Shown: piece by piece, positions 46,597 to 55,841 of the stretch
How positions within the stretch are numbered: position 1 is the first letter of the stretch
Layout: every line of letters begins with the position of its first letter
Made by a program: the position numbers and the translations under genes
Assembly: GCA_016791365.1 (NCBI GenBank)
Contig: JAEUMT010000004.1
Span: forward strand, 1-64,000
Length of the DNA: 64,000 nt
DNA from: Hyphomonadaceae bacterium
GTDB taxonomy: Bacteria > Pseudomonadota > Alphaproteobacteria > Caulobacterales > Aquidulcibacteraceae
Direction of reading: 5' to 3'
The notes under the pieces: model-generated
Databases searched by the model: none
What the model saw: only the letters and a program-made list of their open reading frames with translations
Told to the model about the DNA's origin: nothing

Positions 46597-46678
46597 CTAA
46601 GCCGCGCTCTTGGTTTTCTTCGCCACTAGCTTCGCGAAGCGCCGAACATGCAGTGGCTGTTGTGCGCGTCGGGCGAGA
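46597..46678 (-). pseudogene. carA: Degraded copy of the carA 3' end
   Basis: About 82 bases align with the 3' end of intact carA (48733-48815), both on the minus strand, with about 83% identity and one single-base deletion. The translated tail keeps FAKLVAKKTKSAA before the stop; CarA ends [13 protein letters not shown]. The deletion shifts the frame further upstream, so it is a remnant, not a gene. With intact carA, it brackets the Imm70-like and TIR-FGE genes. Confidence 0.85.
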
Positions 46679-48220
46679 TTACAAACTCCGGGCGACTCTG
46701 AAGCCCATCTCGACGCTGCCGCGATAGTCGCGTTTTTCGGAGTCGCGCGCGGTGAGACCGGGGAGGTCGCTGTACCAGGAGCCGCCGCGCAGCACGATGC
46801 GCTCGCAGACGTCGCTGCGCGGCGCATCGTACGGCGCGTAACAATCATCGACGAATTCGTGCGCGTTGCCGTGCATGTCATAGAGCCCGAATGCGTTGGC
46901 CGGGAACGAGCCTACGTCCCACGACCCGTGCGAACTGGGGCATGTCGATTGCGCGGCGCCGTTTGGCGCCGATGGTTCGCAGACAGGCGCTTCGTCGCCC
47001 CATGAGAAACGCGAGCGTGGGGCGCCGGCGGCGTTTGATCCGCGCGCGGCGTATTCCCATTCGGCTTCGCTGAGCAAACGATACGTGACGCCTGTCATGC
47101 GCGAGAGCCAGGCGACGTAACGTTGCGCATCTTCGAAAGAAATGTGCCCGACTGGCCGGTTCGCGCCGTCCCACCCTTCGATGAAAGTGGAATCGCCGAG
47201 GTTCTGCCAGCCGGCGCGCTGTGGGCGATAGCCGTCGCATCCGCCATTGGCGACGCACGCGTTCCATTCCGCGAACGTGATCTCGTGGGCTGAGACTGCG
47301 TAACGCTGCAGCGTTATTTCGCGCTGCGGAGATTCATCGCTGATGCGGCCCTCAAAGCCGCGAATGCTGAACGCGTCGAGCACGGCGTGGTTCAGCGCGT
47401 GATCTGGCGCGTCTTCAGGTGAGCCCATGAGGAAGCTGCCTTCCGGGACAACCACCATGAGCGGGCAATCGGCGGCGCCATCGCGGCAGTCTTGAAACGT
47501 TGCGCCTGGCGCAAGCGCGGCGGCGGTATCGACGTAGGGGCGATATTTGGTCCAGCTTGCGACGAGCGGCTCAAGCGTTACGCGCTGCGAATAGGCGCCG
47601 GCGCCGGCGAGCGCGAGGATGATCCAGAACGCAGCAGCGCTGAGCGCGCGCGTTTGCCGGCGCTTCTTGTCGCGGTCGATGAGCTGACCGGGGCTTACGC
47701 CGATCAATCCGGCGACGATCTTTAGCCATGCGTTGCGGAAGCCGTCTTTGCCTTTGCGTGCATCGGCCGCCAGCGGTTCGAGTTTGTCGCCCGCGAGCGC
47801 ATCACCGAGGAAGGTGGGCGGGAAGCATGAGCGCGTCGCATCCGCGCCAGCGTCGTCAGTCAGTGGCGCGGCGTCGGAGATGATCGCGAAAACCCGGTCG
47901 GCGCGACCGAGGCTGGCGAAAAACTCAATTTCCTTTTGCACCCACGGGCTCAGCGCTGCGTTGGGTGAGCACACGACGATCAATGCTGACGAGGCGCGCA
48001 GATTGTTTTCGATGGCGTCGCCTAAGTGTCCCGCCGCCAATTCTTCGCGGTCACGGAAAACGGGATAGATGCGGTTGCGTTTGCCGTTGGCGATCAGCCG
48101 GAAATCACCAAGCGATGACGGCACGCCGTAAGCTTCGAGCGCGCGATGCAGTCGCTTCGCGAATGGCGCGTCTTTGCTCGAATAAGAAATGAACGCAGCG
48201 TAGCGCGCTTCGTCTGCCAT
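46679..48220 (-). CDS. TIR - membrane helix - FGE-sulfatase domain protein
   Basis: A 513-residue protein. The TIR domain (residues 5-140) starts AAFISYSSKDAPF and keeps SPWVQKE with Glu97 at the NADase position. A positively charged stretch (residues 183-190) precedes one membrane helix at about 192-210. The C-terminal 250 residues form a formylglycine-generating-enzyme (FGE-sulfatase) fold with GSFLMGSPED, GVTYRLLSEAEWEYAARG and GFRVARS. The usual catalytic cysteine position is not a cysteine (LTARDSEK), so it is probably a binding module. The topology predicts a cytoplasmic TIR and a periplasmic FGE domain. It is in a two-gene set after the Imm70-like gene. Confidence 0.88.
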   Translation of the reverse strand: MADEARYAAFISYSSKDAPFAKRLHRALEAYGVPSSLGDFRLIANGKRNRIYPVFRDREELAAGHLGDAIENNLRASSALIVVCSPNAALSPWVQKEIEFFASLGRADRVFAIISDAAPLTDDAGADATRSCFPPTFLGDALAGDKLEPLAADARKGKDGFRNAWLKIVAGLIGVSPGQLIDRDKKRRQTRALSAAAFWIILALAGAGAYSQRVTLEPLVASWTKYRPYVDTAAALAPGATFQDCRDGAADCPLMVVVPEGSFLMGSPEDAPDHALNHAVLDAFSIRGFEGRISDESPQREITLQRYAVSAHEITFAEWNACVANGGCDGYRPQRAGWQNLGDSTFIEGWDGANRPVGHISFEDAQRYVAWLSRMTGVTYRLLSEAEWEYAARGSNAAGAPRSRFSWGDEAPVCEPSAPNGAAQSTCPSSHGSWDVGSFPANAFGLYDMHGNAHEFVDDCYAPYDAPRSDVCERIVLRGGSWYSDLPGLTARDSEKRDYRGSVEMGFRVARSL

Positions 48221-48296: not shown

Positions 48297-48725
48297 TCAG
48301 CGCCTGGCGTCGAATGGGACGATTTCGAGTGGACCGCCAAATTCGATTTGCGATTCCAGATTGTCGACGACTTCGTCGACCAGGTTGCGGCCTGTCGTGG
48401 TGACGAAATATTGCGCCATGTTGGCGACGTGCGAGCCGACACGCTCGCCCCAAGGCGGCAGCGCGCCTGGCTGGTCGATGTCCCAGACTATTTCTTTCGG
48501 CGGAAGGAGGGCGAGCTCGCTGCGGATCGTCTGCGCTTCGCGCATCGCCTCTGTCGCGTGCTCAGCCGCGAGCGAGCCTTGATAAAGCTCGTTCATGATG
48601 CGTGGAAAGCGGCTGCCCCAGGCGCCGCGCTCGAGCTTTGCGGCAATTGTCGAGCAGAGAGCGTGAAGAATGCCGCCAGGACCAATGATGGTGAGCACGG
48701 CGCCTTGGCGAAATGCGATCGTCAC
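48297..48725 (-). CDS. Imm70-like immunity protein
   Basis: A 142-residue protein that resembles the Imm70 family of polymorphic-toxin immunity proteins: WGSRFPRIMNELYQG, IVWDIDQPGALPPWG and YFVTTTGRNL are matching blocks as I recall them. It starts 7 bases after the carA stop. No matching toxin gene is present in the window. The TIR-FGE gene follows 76 bases later. It may protect against an incoming toxin or act with the TIR protein; the second is only an inference. Confidence 0.68.
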   Translation of the reverse strand: MTIAFRQGAVLTIIGPGGILHALCSTIAAKLERGAWGSRFPRIMNELYQGSLAAEHATEAMREAQTIRSELALLPPKEIVWDIDQPGALPPWGERVGSHVANMAQYFVTTTGRNLVDEVVDNLESQIEFGGPLEIVPFDARR

Positions 48726-48732
48726 GGCGTGG

Positions 48733-49914
48733 CTAAGCCGCGTTCTTCGTTTTCTTCGCCATCAGCTTCGCGAAGCGCTCGAACAAATAGTGGCTGTCTT
48801 GCGGGCCGGGTGACGCTTCCGGGTGATACTGCACCGAGAACACCGGCTTGCCTTCGAGTTCGATGCCGCAATTGGAGCCGTCGAACAGGGAGACGTGGGT
48901 TTCTTTCACGCCTTTGGGCAGTGTTTTTGTGTCGATCGCGAAGCCGTGGTTCATCGAGACGATTTCGACTTTGCCGGTCGATTGATCTTTCACCGGGTGG
49001 TTCGCGCCGTGGTGGCCTTGCGCCATTTTGTGCGTCTTCGCGCCGAGCGCGAGGCCGAGCATTTGGTGGCCGAGGCAGACGCCCATCACCGGCTTGCCGC
49101 TGTCGACGAGCTTCTTGATCTGCGGCGCGGCGTACACGCCAGTCGCGGCTGGATCGCCCGGGCCGTTTGAAAGCAGGATGCCATCCGGATTGTGCGCGAG
49201 TACTTCTTCAGCGGTTGCGGTCGCGGGCAACACTATCGTCTTTGCGCCGATCTCACCGAGTGCGCGGAGGATGTTGCGCTTCACGCCATAGTCCATGACC
49301 ACGACGGTGAATTTCGGCTTCTTCACTTCCGGCACGCCGATCGACCATTGCCAGAGCTTTTCGTTGACGACGTAGCTCTGCGCGGTGGTGACTTCTTTCG
49401 CGAGGTCGAGGCCGTCGAGGCCGTGCCAGGCTTTCGCGCGCTTCTTCAAAGCGTCGAGATCGAACTTGCCGTCGGCCGCGTGCGCGATGACGGCGTTCGG
49501 CATGCCTTGTTCGCGGATGCGCTTGGTCAGTGCGCGCGTGTCGAGGCCCGAGAGGCCGATCACATTACGCTTCTTCATCCAGCTATCGAGATCATCGTCG
49601 CTGCGCCAATTCGACGGCATCGTCGGGCGCGTGCGGAAAACGGCGCCGCGCGCGGCTGCCGATGCAGCTGGCGAAGAGGTTTCGATGTCTTCGTTGTTGG
49701 TGCCGACATTGCCGATATGCGGGAAGGTGAAGGCGACGATCTGCGCGGCGTAGGAGGGGTCCGTTAGGATTTCCTGATAGCCGGTCATCGACGTGTTGAA
49801 GCAGACCTCGCCATCGGCGGCGCCTATCGCGCCCAGGCCTTCGCCCAGGAAAATGGAACCATCGGCGAGCACGAGTGCGCCGGTGGGGGCGGAGGATTGA
49901 GTCGGATGGGCCAA
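48733..49914 (-). CDS. carA: Carbamoyl-phosphate synthase small subunit
   Basis: A glutaminase of about 393 residues, supplying ammonia to CarB. The N-terminal CarA domain begins [15 protein letters not shown]. The class I glutamine amidotransferase domain has the nucleophile in [10 protein letters not shown] and the His-Pro-Glu in QYHPEASPG. The start is uncertain: no ATG lies in frame between 50097 and the domain, and the TTG at 49914 best fits the family length. It is 7 bases upstream of the Imm70-like gene, so that gene is probably co-transcribed from the carA promoter. Confidence 0.93.
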
Positions 49915-50075
49915 AGCGGCAGTGAGATAGGGTGCGCGGGGCGGGGTGTCAAAACGCCGGGTGCGGCCTTTGGCGGACCCCGCGTCACAGCCCCGGTCAA
50001 ACCCATGCCGCAAAGGTGAACACCCTGTCAGCCATGCGCGTTGGCGGGCAGATGACAGGGCTGTAAGGTTTCGGG

Positions 50076-52238
50076 GTGGTATCGAAGATCGGCACACTTT
50101 GGGCGGGGGCGGTTGCCCTGGCGCTAGGGCTAGCGGTCGCCGCCTGCGGCGAGCGCGCCCGCGCGCCCGTGCCCGATCCGGCCGCGCCTGATCTCATCAC
50201 CCGTGCGGCCTTGTTCGGAGAGCCCGCGAGAGGCGCCGGCCAGCTCTCGCCGCGCGGCGACCGCATCGCGTTCTTGGCCCCCCGCGACGGTGTCACGAAC
50301 ATCTGGGTGCTGTCAGTCGACGCCATGGACGAGGCGCGTCCGTTGACGGACGAGCGCGCGCGCGGCGTCACCAATTTTCGCTGGTCGGCGGACGGCGCGA
50401 CGCTGCTGTTTCTGCAAGATAATAGCGGCGACGAGAATGCACGTCTGTACGGGGTCGACGCGACAACGGGCGTTGTACGTCCGCTGACGCCGGCGGGCGT
50501 ACGCGCCGAGATCCTTGGCGTTAGCCAATCCGATCCGGACGCTGTGATTGTGTCCCTGAACGATCGCGATCGCGGATGGCCGGATGTGGTTCGCATCGAA
50601 TTGGCCACCGGCGCGCGAAGCGTGTTGCTGCGCAATGCGGGGCCGCGGGGATATGTCAGCGTGCTGCTCGACCGCGACAACGCCGTGCGTGTTGGCATGC
50701 GCGCGCTGGCGGACGGCGGCGTTGAGGTCGTGGCGATGCCGCCGCGTGGACGCGCGCGGACATTGTTCGCGGCGTCGTTCGAGGACGCGATGTCGATGCG
50801 CCTCATCGGTATGGAGGCCGATGGCGCGCATTTTCTAATGCTGGATTCGAGCGTCGGTCAGCCCGACGCGGCGCGTGATCGTACGGCGCTGGTGCGCGTC
50901 GATATCGCGACCGGCGAGAGGATCGTATTGGGCGAGGGCGAACGCTCCGAGGTTGTCGATGTCTGGATCGATCCCGCGACGGGCGCGGCGGAAGCGTTCG
51001 CGACCGAGTATTTGCGGCGCGAGTGGCGCGCGCTCAATTCTGATAGTCAGGCTGATATCGAGTTTCTGGATCGCTCGCTGACCGGTGATTTCAGTGTCGT
51101 GTCGCGCAGCGCTGACGACACGCGTTGGATTGTGCTGGAGGAGAGTCCAACGACGCCGCGGCGTTCCTATCTGTTCGATCGCGCCGGACCGGCTGGACGG
51201 CGATTGACCTCGCTGTTTTCGCACCGTCCCGATTTGCAGCAAGCGGCGCTGCAGCCGATGACCCCGGTTGAGATCGTGGCGCGCGACGGTGTGAGCCTGG
51301 TTTCGTACCTCACGCTCCCCGGTGGAGCCGACGCGAATGGCGATGCGCGTCCCGAGCAACCTCTGCCGCTTGTGCTGCTTCCGCACGATGGCCCATGGGC
51401 GCGTGATTCTTATGGCTTCGACGCGATGCACCAATGGCTCGCCAATCGCGGCTATGCGGTGCTCTCGGTGAATTACCGGGGTTCCGCAGGCTTTGGAAAA
51501 GCATTCCTCAATGCCGGCAATGGCGAGTGGGGCGCGGCGATACAGAATGACCTCGCCGATGCGGCGCAGTGGGCCGTTGCACAACGCGTCGCCGAAGAGG
51601 GGCGCGTTGCGATCGTGGGGTCTGGGTTCGGCGGCTACGCGGTATTGTCGGGCCTCGCGTTCACGCCCGACCAATATCGCTGCGGTGCAAGTTTTGCGGC
51701 GCCCGCCAACTTGTTCTCGATGCTGGATCTCGCGCCGGCATGGCAGCGCGATCAGCTCTATCGCCGCGTCGCCGACGCGCGGACCGAAGCTGGCCGACAA
51801 TTGTTGCGTGTGCGCTCACCGGTTTTCCACGCCGGGCGTGTACGCAGCCCGTTGTTGTTGGCGTATGGCGCACGCGATCCGCGTCTCTCGCGCGGTGAGA
51901 CGGATCAGGTTGCGCAAGCGGTTCGCCTGCGCGGCATGCTGACCTATCTCGTCTTTCCCGATGAGGGACGCGAACTCATCCGCCCACAAGACCGGCTTTC
52001 ATACCTCGCGGTGCTTGAGCATTTTTTGGGCGATTGCCTGGGCGGACGGGTTGAGCCGGTTGGCGCCGCGTTCGAGGGCGCGGCGATCAATGTCTATGAC
52101 GGCGCGGTCAATGTGCCGGGTCTGAGCGCGTTCTCGCGCCGGCCGGCTCAAGCAGCGCCGCAACCGGCGCCGCAAGAAACCGGCGAAGACGGCGCCGAAA
52201 ACGCCATCGAACCGGGCGCCGAAGACGAGCTGGACTAA
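50076..52238 (+). CDS. S9 prolyl-oligopeptidase-like lipoprotein lacking catalytic residues
   Basis: A 720-residue protein from the GTG at 50076, with a lipobox signal (AVAACGE). A beta-propeller precedes an alpha/beta hydrolase domain at about residues 440-660. The nucleophile elbow, normally GxSxGG, reads GSGFGG with Gly517 in the serine position. The histidine segment reads DEGREL in place of an EGH-type loop. The Asp block (YGARDP) is kept. It therefore looks like a pseudoenzyme. An intact paralogue is at 58841. A disordered, acidic C-terminal tail of about 50 residues follows the hydrolase fold. Confidence 0.85.
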
Positions 52239-54194: not shown

Positions 54195-55841
54195 TCAGCT
54201 TGAGCCGTCGCCACGCGCGTAACCGACGATCGCGGCCCGTACGAAATCGTCGAAATTGATGCTGTCGAGGTGCCGCGGATGCGGCGCCCATGGCGGGCCG
54301 TCGAGCATCTGTACGGTGATTTCGGGTTGCTTGCCTTTGCTGCGCTTGTTGCGGCCAAGCGCGTGCTCGGTTTCTTTTTCCACCCACTCGGACGCCGCGG
54401 CCGATTTCGACCAGCACAGGTGGAAAAGGTCGGCGCGATCGATCTCGCGGCGCAGCCGCGGGCTCCATTCTTCGCCAGATTTCAGCGACGTCCTGTCAAA
54501 GAAGTGCTCCACACCGGCGGCGGCATAGGCGGTGGCGATCGCCGAAACGGTTTCGCGGTCCTTGCTTGAGTAGGAGAGAAAAACCCGTTTGTGCCGCTTG
54601 AGGCGAACGCTGTCCGCGGATGCAGCGTTTTTCTTCGGACCACCGATCGGGCGTGTGAACGCGAGTACGCCAATTTGTGCGTCATCGACGAAAACGCGCG
54701 CCAAGAACACGGCTTGCTTGACGCCGTCTTCGGCTTCGGCCGAGAAGTTGAAATCGATCGGTTCGCCTTGCCACGTGCGCCGCTGAACGGCGCCCTCGCA
54801 GCTTGCGCCCCGCACTTCGAGCATGACGCCGACGCTGGCGCCCAGCGGCACCTCGCCGATTTTCATGCCGCTCGGCGCCGCATCCGTCGTCGGATCGATT
54901 TTACGCGCCTCTTTGATGACGGCCTTCAAGTCCTTCGGTTGATGGAGGACGATCCGCACCAGTTCCGGCGTGCCGCGCCGGAGTTTTTTCGGCGCGAACG
55001 CGGTGGCGTCGGCGGGCGCGCCCGATGGCGCGGCGCGCGCGTTGCCGACTGTAATTCCGCGCTCGCGTATCGGCGGTGGTGTCGCCGGCGCCGGCGTTGG
55101 CGCCTGTGGCCTGGCCGCTTCTGTTTCCAGCTCGGTAACGCTTGCCGGCGGTGCGGGAGGTTCGGGCGCGGAATCCCGGGGCGCCGCTTCCTGTTCAGCC
55201 GGCGCCTGGTAACCGCCGCCGAACGCATCTGAAAGCGGCTCATCGGTTTCCGGCGCAGGCGCCGTGACGCCTTCATCGACCGGCGCCAAATTATCATCCG
55301 CCGAACCGGGGGCGGGCGCATCGTCGGTTTCTGCCGGCGCTTCGTTTTCGACGCCGCCGTGAAGGTCGGGCGCGGTTTCCTGCTCGGGCTGCGGTTCGGG
55401 CTCAGGGTCTGGCGCTGGGGTGGGCGGCGCGGCTTCCTCGACCGGCGGCAGCGGATGCGCGCGCGGTGGCGTTTCGCCGCCTTCTGCCTCGGTGCGCCGC
55501 CGCAGCAAATCGATCGCGCGCGCTTGCGCGTCGGCCATCGCCATGACCGGCCAGGCCTGGGGCAAAAAACCAAACGCGGCGCGCACGTCCGGATCGGCCA
55601 AAATGAGCTGTGCGCTGCGGAGCGTGCGCGAGAGAACTTGCAAGAGCGCAATATAGTTCGCGTCGCGGGTAGCGGCCGCGGTCAGAACGATGCCGACATT
55701 CGCCGCGCTTTGCATTGCGGTCGCGGCGGCTTCGTCTGTGCCAAACGATTGGGCGCTGACCGCCTCCAGGCCGAAGCCGCTGGCGATATCGTGCAAGTCG
55801 GGCAGGTCTGCCTGAGCAGCCAGCAAAAATCCGTTCGACAT
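54195..55841 (-). CDS. TIR-domain protein with long acidic linker
   Basis: A 548-residue protein. An N-terminal helical/Rossmann-like segment of 120 residues is followed by a Pro/Ala/Glu-rich disordered region. A beta domain at about 285-400 contains LVRIVLHQPKDLK and VFVDDAQIGVLAFTRP. The C-terminal TIR domain (residues 419-548) opens RVFLSYSSKD and keeps SEWVEKE, with the candidate NADase Glu at about 490. There is no membrane helix. TIR proteins of this kind serve in NAD-depleting antiphage defence or signalling. It lies 66 bases upstream of the tRNA gene. Confidence 0.82.
   Translation of the reverse strand: MSNGFLLAAQADLPDLHDIASGFGLEAVSAQSFGTDEAAATAMQSAANVGIVLTAAATRDANYIALLQVLSRTLRSAQLILADPDVRAAFGFLPQAWPVMAMADAQARAIDLLRRRTEAEGGETPPRAHPLPPVEEAAPPTPAPDPEPEPQPEQETAPDLHGGVENEAPAETDDAPAPGSADDNLAPVDEGVTAPAPETDEPLSDAFGGGYQAPAEQEAAPRDSAPEPPAPPASVTELETEAARPQAPTPAPATPPPIRERGITVGNARAAPSGAPADATAFAPKKLRRGTPELVRIVLHQPKDLKAVIKEARKIDPTTDAAPSGMKIGEVPLGASVGVMLEVRGASCEGAVQRRTWQGEPIDFNFSAEAEDGVKQAVFLARVFVDDAQIGVLAFTRPIGGPKKNAASADSVRLKRHKRVFLSYSSKDRETVSAIATAYAAAGVEHFFDRTSLKSGEEWSPRLRREIDRADLFHLCWSKSAAASEWVEKETEHALGRNKRSKGKQPEITVQMLDGPPWAPHPRHLDSINFDDFVRAAIVGYARGDGSS

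Follow-up and report, generated by a model that had tools for sequence, protein, structure and literature searches.

The window analysed here, the whole 64,000-nucleotide stretch at the start of contig JAEUMT010000004.1 of a Hyphomonadaceae bacterium, was found to carry a 513-aa open reading frame on its reverse strand. Pfam analysis of the translated protein identified a TIR_2 domain at residues 10-114 (E 4.5e-12) and an FGE-sulfatase domain at residues 252-511 (E 1.6e-42), while Kyte-Doolittle analysis detected one hydrophobic segment, which directly follows the basic patch RDKKRRQTR. The combination of TIR domain, single helix and FGE fold given in a preliminary description of this DNA was thus borne out, as was its placing of the basic patch and the helix. 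An Imm70 immunity-protein gene begins 7 nt past the stop codon of carA, and the ~2.1-kb segment comprising this gene and the TIR-FGE gene is bracketed by an imperfect direct repeat, about 80 bp long, of the carA 3' end, the two copies sharing 91% identity over 46 nt and then 76% over the next 34 nt (Table 1).

Table 1. Features of the TIR-FGE locus, in window coordinates
Feature	Position	Strand	Basis
TIR-TM-FGE fold protein, 513 aa (P0001)	46679..48220	(-)	ORF, translation; Pfam TIR_2 and FGE-sulfatase
TIR domain, about residues 7-176	47693..48202	(-)	Pfam, structure model, fold matches
Glu97, putative catalytic glutamate (SPWVQKE)	47930..47932	(-)	Relatives and plant TIR alignment
Basic patch RDKKRRQTR, residues 183-191	47648..47674	(-)	Sequence; positive-inside bias
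Transmembrane helix, residues 192-210	47591..47647	(-)	Kyte-Doolittle 1.78; position common to TIR-family relatives
PvdO/FGE-fold (C-type lectin fold) domain, residues 252-511	46688..47467	(-)	Pfam, model, PvdO match
Cys pair 245/252	47465..47488	(-)	Co-occurrence; confined to exported relatives
Cys pair 322/328	47237..47257	(-)	Co-occurrence; confined to exported relatives
Cys pair 460/472	46805..46843	(-)	Co-occurrence; mostly in exported relatives
Columns of the two FGE catalytic cysteines, S484 and L486	46763..46771	(-)	Alignment with canonical FGE L006
Imm70 immunity-protein gene	48297..48725	(-)	Pfam Imm70 1.7e-34; same inserted segment
3' end of intact carA (near repeat)	48733..48813	(-)	carA CDS 48733-50097
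Displaced, frame-broken copy of carA 3' end (far repeat)	46597..46676	(-)	Nucleotide identity to 48733-48813

The TIR domain and the PvdO-like domain

In the full-length structure prediction, the TIR domain was modelled with a pLDDT of about 90-96 across most of its length, and its top structural matches were NADase TIRs; comparison gave Z 15.2 with the TIR-APAZ of SPARTA and Z about 14 with human SARM1 TIR, at 26% identity. The motif SPWVQKE, which had been described as kept by the domain, occupies residues 91-97 and ends in Glu97, a residue found in all 24 relatives that cover this column. Profile-based alignment placed Glu97 in the glutamate column of the plant TIR NADases L6 and RUN1, a link that was found with a profile and not with single-sequence phmmer, which matched the TIR domain alone to no solved TIR in the PDB at E <= 1. 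Both the fold and the catalytic glutamate column of TIR NADases are thus present, and the domain is a putative NADase. The ThsB_TIR profile (Thoeris ThsB) also matched above its cut-off, at 31.9 bits, more weakly than TIR_2, and a PADLOC search for known defence systems returned partial TIR matches and defined no known system.

Since the full-length model, built from a mixed alignment, resolved only the TIR domain well and left the FGE part poor, the latter was refolded alone, giving a model with pLDDT 83 and pTM 0.86. Its fold is that of SUMF1/FGE, with Z about 23 to FGE structures and Z 25.3 to TvpA (2y3c), the variable protein of a diversity-generating retroelement (DGR). The nearest solved structure was PvdO (5hha), both by phmmer (E 7e-31) and by structure comparison (Z 28.1 over 232 residues, 38% identity), which places the domain in the PvdO-like branch of PF03781; it scored 133 bits against the NCBIfam pyoverdine_PvdO equivalog, whose cut-off is 500.

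Human FGE has two catalytic cysteines, C336/C341. The same genome encodes a separate, canonical FGE (RVLKGGSQLCAPNFCSRYR, L006) with both catalytic cysteines in the motif LCAPNFC, and when the domain was aligned with this enzyme the two columns were found to hold Ser484 and Leu486. The catalytic-cysteine segment had been read as LTARDSEK; the site is indeed devoid of cysteine, but LTARDSEK (489-496) lies just past these columns. The cysteines of the domain, at 245, 252, 322, 328, 414, 427, 460 and 472 with none after residue 472, look to sit where structural disulfides would rather than at the FGE active site. In the stretch checked, the FGE cysteine pair was absent from all 123 collected homologues, 13 of which had one cysteine there, and the PvdO 5hha segment aligned by phmmer likewise has no cysteine at the site. 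Thus, while it is true that the domain lacks its catalytic cysteine, the wording misleads, because such a lack is normal in the PvdO-like branch, and the domain is better read as a member of a non-FGE branch than as a broken FGE. A decayed FGE that had lost its cysteines was ruled out on the same ground and by the presence of the canonical enzyme in the genome. Where the catalytic site was lost, the loop ranks with the most variable parts of the domain; its entropy is 2.9-3.0 bits, compared with a mean of 1.9 across the domain.

Membrane topology

The residues flanking the helix are asymmetrically charged, with six Lys and Arg in 15 residues on the N-terminal side against two in 15 on the C-terminal side. 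The same bias runs through the family, the N-terminal side being the more positive in 40 of 42 FGE proteins that have just one internal helix and in 30/33 TIR proteins, and nearly all TIR-family relatives have a helix at the equivalent place. Three cysteine pairs of the FGE-fold domain co-occur strongly (p down to 6e-36), both members being present in 57 of the 59 homologues that have either residue of the pair 245/252, in 52/52 for 322/328 and in 74/79 for 460/472. When relatives were classed by simple hydropathy rules, which may have missed weak signal peptides in a few of the 'non-exported' proteins and make the counts approximate, 245/252 was found in 55 of 109 exported and none of 11 non-exported proteins, 322/328 in 51/109 and 0/11, and 460/472 in 70/109 and 3/11, respectively. 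These pairs are thus probably disulfides that track export. Moreover, the guanylate cyclase, protein kinase, PP2C, HD-GYP and caspase heads that are joined to the same tail work in the cytoplasm. Together, the charge bias, the export-linked cysteine pairs and the cytoplasmic heads support the orientation given in the preliminary description, with the TIR domain inside and the FGE domain in the periplasm.

Shuffled heads and the carA segment

The same FGE module was found behind one helix on guanylate cyclase, kinase, PP2C, HD-GYP, caspase and TIR-nSTAND1 heads. The TIR domain shares up to about 80% identity with TIRs that bear WD40 or MlaD/MCE tails in other genomes of the genus. The FGE tail instead clusters with the TIR-nSTAND1-TM-FGE proteins of the genus (support 0.958), and the switch in similarity between the two lineages falls near the helix. 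The protein is a chimera, its TIR derived from the TIR-TM-WD40/MCE lineage and its tail from the TIR-STAND-TM-FGE lineage. This particular pairing of TIR and FGE was not seen in any of the 29 other genomes of the genus. Proteins that join an FGE domain to a different type of TIR do exist (L124, L125), so that the architecture recurs by shuffling, and open reading frames with both TIR and FGE matches are candidates for further members in G021, G022, G024 and G025. Related TIRs carry WD40, TPR and MCE partners; one such protein (L130, 2747-3772) joins a TIR through a transmembrane segment to an MlaD/MCE periplasmic domain of lipid-transport type. Another FGE protein with one helix (L004, 889-2322) has an N-terminal region that matches no Pfam family.

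The bracketing repeats look like the product of site-specific insertion at carA, a gene present in 28 of the 30 genomes of the genus, and no recombinase was identified for it. A second carA tail was also found in G003 (L194, 2344-2417 and 3100-3188), with a Gp49-like toxin and an HI1420-type antidote between the copies. The source and G003 assemblies are both in many contigs, and an assembly artefact, though possible, is less likely because the carA repeat is imperfect. The carA 3' end is a possible insertion site for small cargo; in G005, carA is followed immediately by a different TIR gene (L201, 7154-8344). The Imm70 gene is rare in the class and looks like an orphan, with no partner toxin in sight; none of the 29 other genomes in the genus has it, and of 385 genomes sampled across the class the source genome alone passed the family cut-off, with one weak match besides.

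A candidate periplasm-facing receptor

With a TIR enzyme domain inside, a lectin-fold domain without catalytic cysteines outside and a single helix between them, the protein is built like a small receptor. We favour, with moderate confidence, a type II single-pass inner-membrane receptor that faces the periplasm and is driven by a ligand, with a cytoplasmic TIR effector. The N-terminal TIR domain would lie in the cytoplasm and the C-terminal PvdO/FGE-type domain, lacking the FGE cysteines and probably braced by disulfides, in the periplasm, where its variable face, which resembles an active site, may bind a ligand; binding would then drive clustering across the helix, bring TIR domains together and switch on NAD+ cleavage or nucleotide signalling via Glu97, possibly in defence or cell death. 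Ligand sensing by the outside domain, which we infer from the modular architecture and the variable active-site loop, is a good reading of these features and agrees with published proposals for FGS (PF03781) domains (PMC8195603).

Other readings of the outside domain have to be weighed. It may be a periplasmic enzyme of PvdO-like oxidation or a scaffold like PorK/GldK, with the TIR domain serving it as a partner in the cytoplasm and not as a sensor's output. PvdO, its closest solved relative, is periplasmic and required for dihydropyoverdine oxidation, so that a domain of this fold may be catalytic even when it lacks the FGE cysteines, which counts against sensing; PorK and GldK are structural members of the same fold, and exported FGE proteins without signalling heads exist. 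However, the active-site loop is one of the domain's most variable parts, the tail is common to many unrelated signalling heads, and a Pfam scan of five neighbours found no biosynthetic genes; we hold it to be unlikely. We give distinctly less credence to a cytoplasmic FGE domain behind a hydrophobic segment that is not a membrane helix, as in the soluble STAND-FGS conflict proteins, and regard it as very improbable. The hydropathy of the segment is only moderate (1.78), which counts against the receptor reading, and several published DGR-linked CLec targets are predicted to be cytoplasmic, but the family-wide charge and cysteine-pair evidence opposes this, as does the equal placing of the helix in nearly all TIR relatives, one of them with the periplasmic-type MlaD/MCE domain.

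Many TIRs are adaptors, and an adaptor or assembly role without NADase activity would fit the failure of the single TIR sequence to match solved TIRs directly and the WD40, TPR and MCE partners of its relatives; the presence of Glu97 in all 24 relatives that cover it, its alignment to NADase TIRs and the lead of such TIRs among the structural matches make this role quite unlikely. There is hardly any likelihood that the TIR-FGE protein and Imm70 form a toxin-immunity pair. The genes are adjacent on the same strand in one inserted segment, and another genome has a toxin-antitoxin pair between repeats of the same kind; elsewhere, however, Imm70 occurs in polymorphic-toxin clusters (LXG, TNT, AHH) and not beside TIRs, so that the present copy resembles an orphan immunity gene that travelled with the segment.

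Set against the openly licensed literature, the type of protein was partly foreseen, and what is new is that it faces outward, is of patchwork descent and lies on a small segment of acquired DNA. A published proposal (PMC8195603) holds that FGS domains recognise invaders when they are attached to TIR, caspase and STAND proteins, and that they do so by binding invader molecules, for instance viral proteins or nucleic acids. The STAND-FGS conflict proteins of the nSTAND1 family likewise combine a TIR effector with a PF03781 sensor of C-type lectin fold. In contrast, Pfam finds only TIR and FGE in the 513-aa protein, with no STAND or other NTPase between them and no EAD adaptor, and its helix puts the sensor outside; the related TIR-nSTAND1-TM-FGE proteins do have an NTPase between TIR and FGE. 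DGR-diversified CLec/FGE relatives have been discussed as antigen sensors (PMC10907252), and TvpA resembles the domain both in fold and in its variability in the same C-terminal stretch. A DGR-diversified target was nevertheless ruled out, as the source genome (99.5% complete) gave no RVT_1 match and so has no reverse transcriptase. PvdO differs in being an untethered protein of the periplasm that is linked to pyoverdine synthesis, whereas the present domain is joined to a TIR domain, and SUMF1-type formylglycine-generating enzymes share the fold but have the catalytic cysteines.

Animal Toll-like receptors have a ligand domain outside, one helix and a TIR domain inside; the working layout is similar, but the chain order is opposite and the ectodomain unrelated, and the 513-aa protein is not a member of that family. 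The bacterial TIR systems characterised so far are mostly regarded as sensors of intracellular events. If the receptor reading is true, a TIR domain with a periplasmic lectin-fold sensor would enable the cell to respond to an invader or toxin that has not yet entered, in a receptor layout parallel to that of the Toll-like receptors, and would give this PvdO-like branch of FGS sensors a concrete, testable location. More tentatively, it is possible that the genus runs a shuffled, Toll-receptor-like set in which TIR, TIR-STAND or cyclase heads are joined by one helix to an outward lectin-fold sensor watching the periplasm, some members being disseminated as small defence segments with the 3' end of carA as their insertion site. 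Genomes of the genus hold between 8 and 25 TIR domains, and the source genome (3.46 Mb) holds 18. A second TIR protein, of 548 aa with a C-terminal TIR domain, lies about 6 kb away in the window, at 54195-55841.
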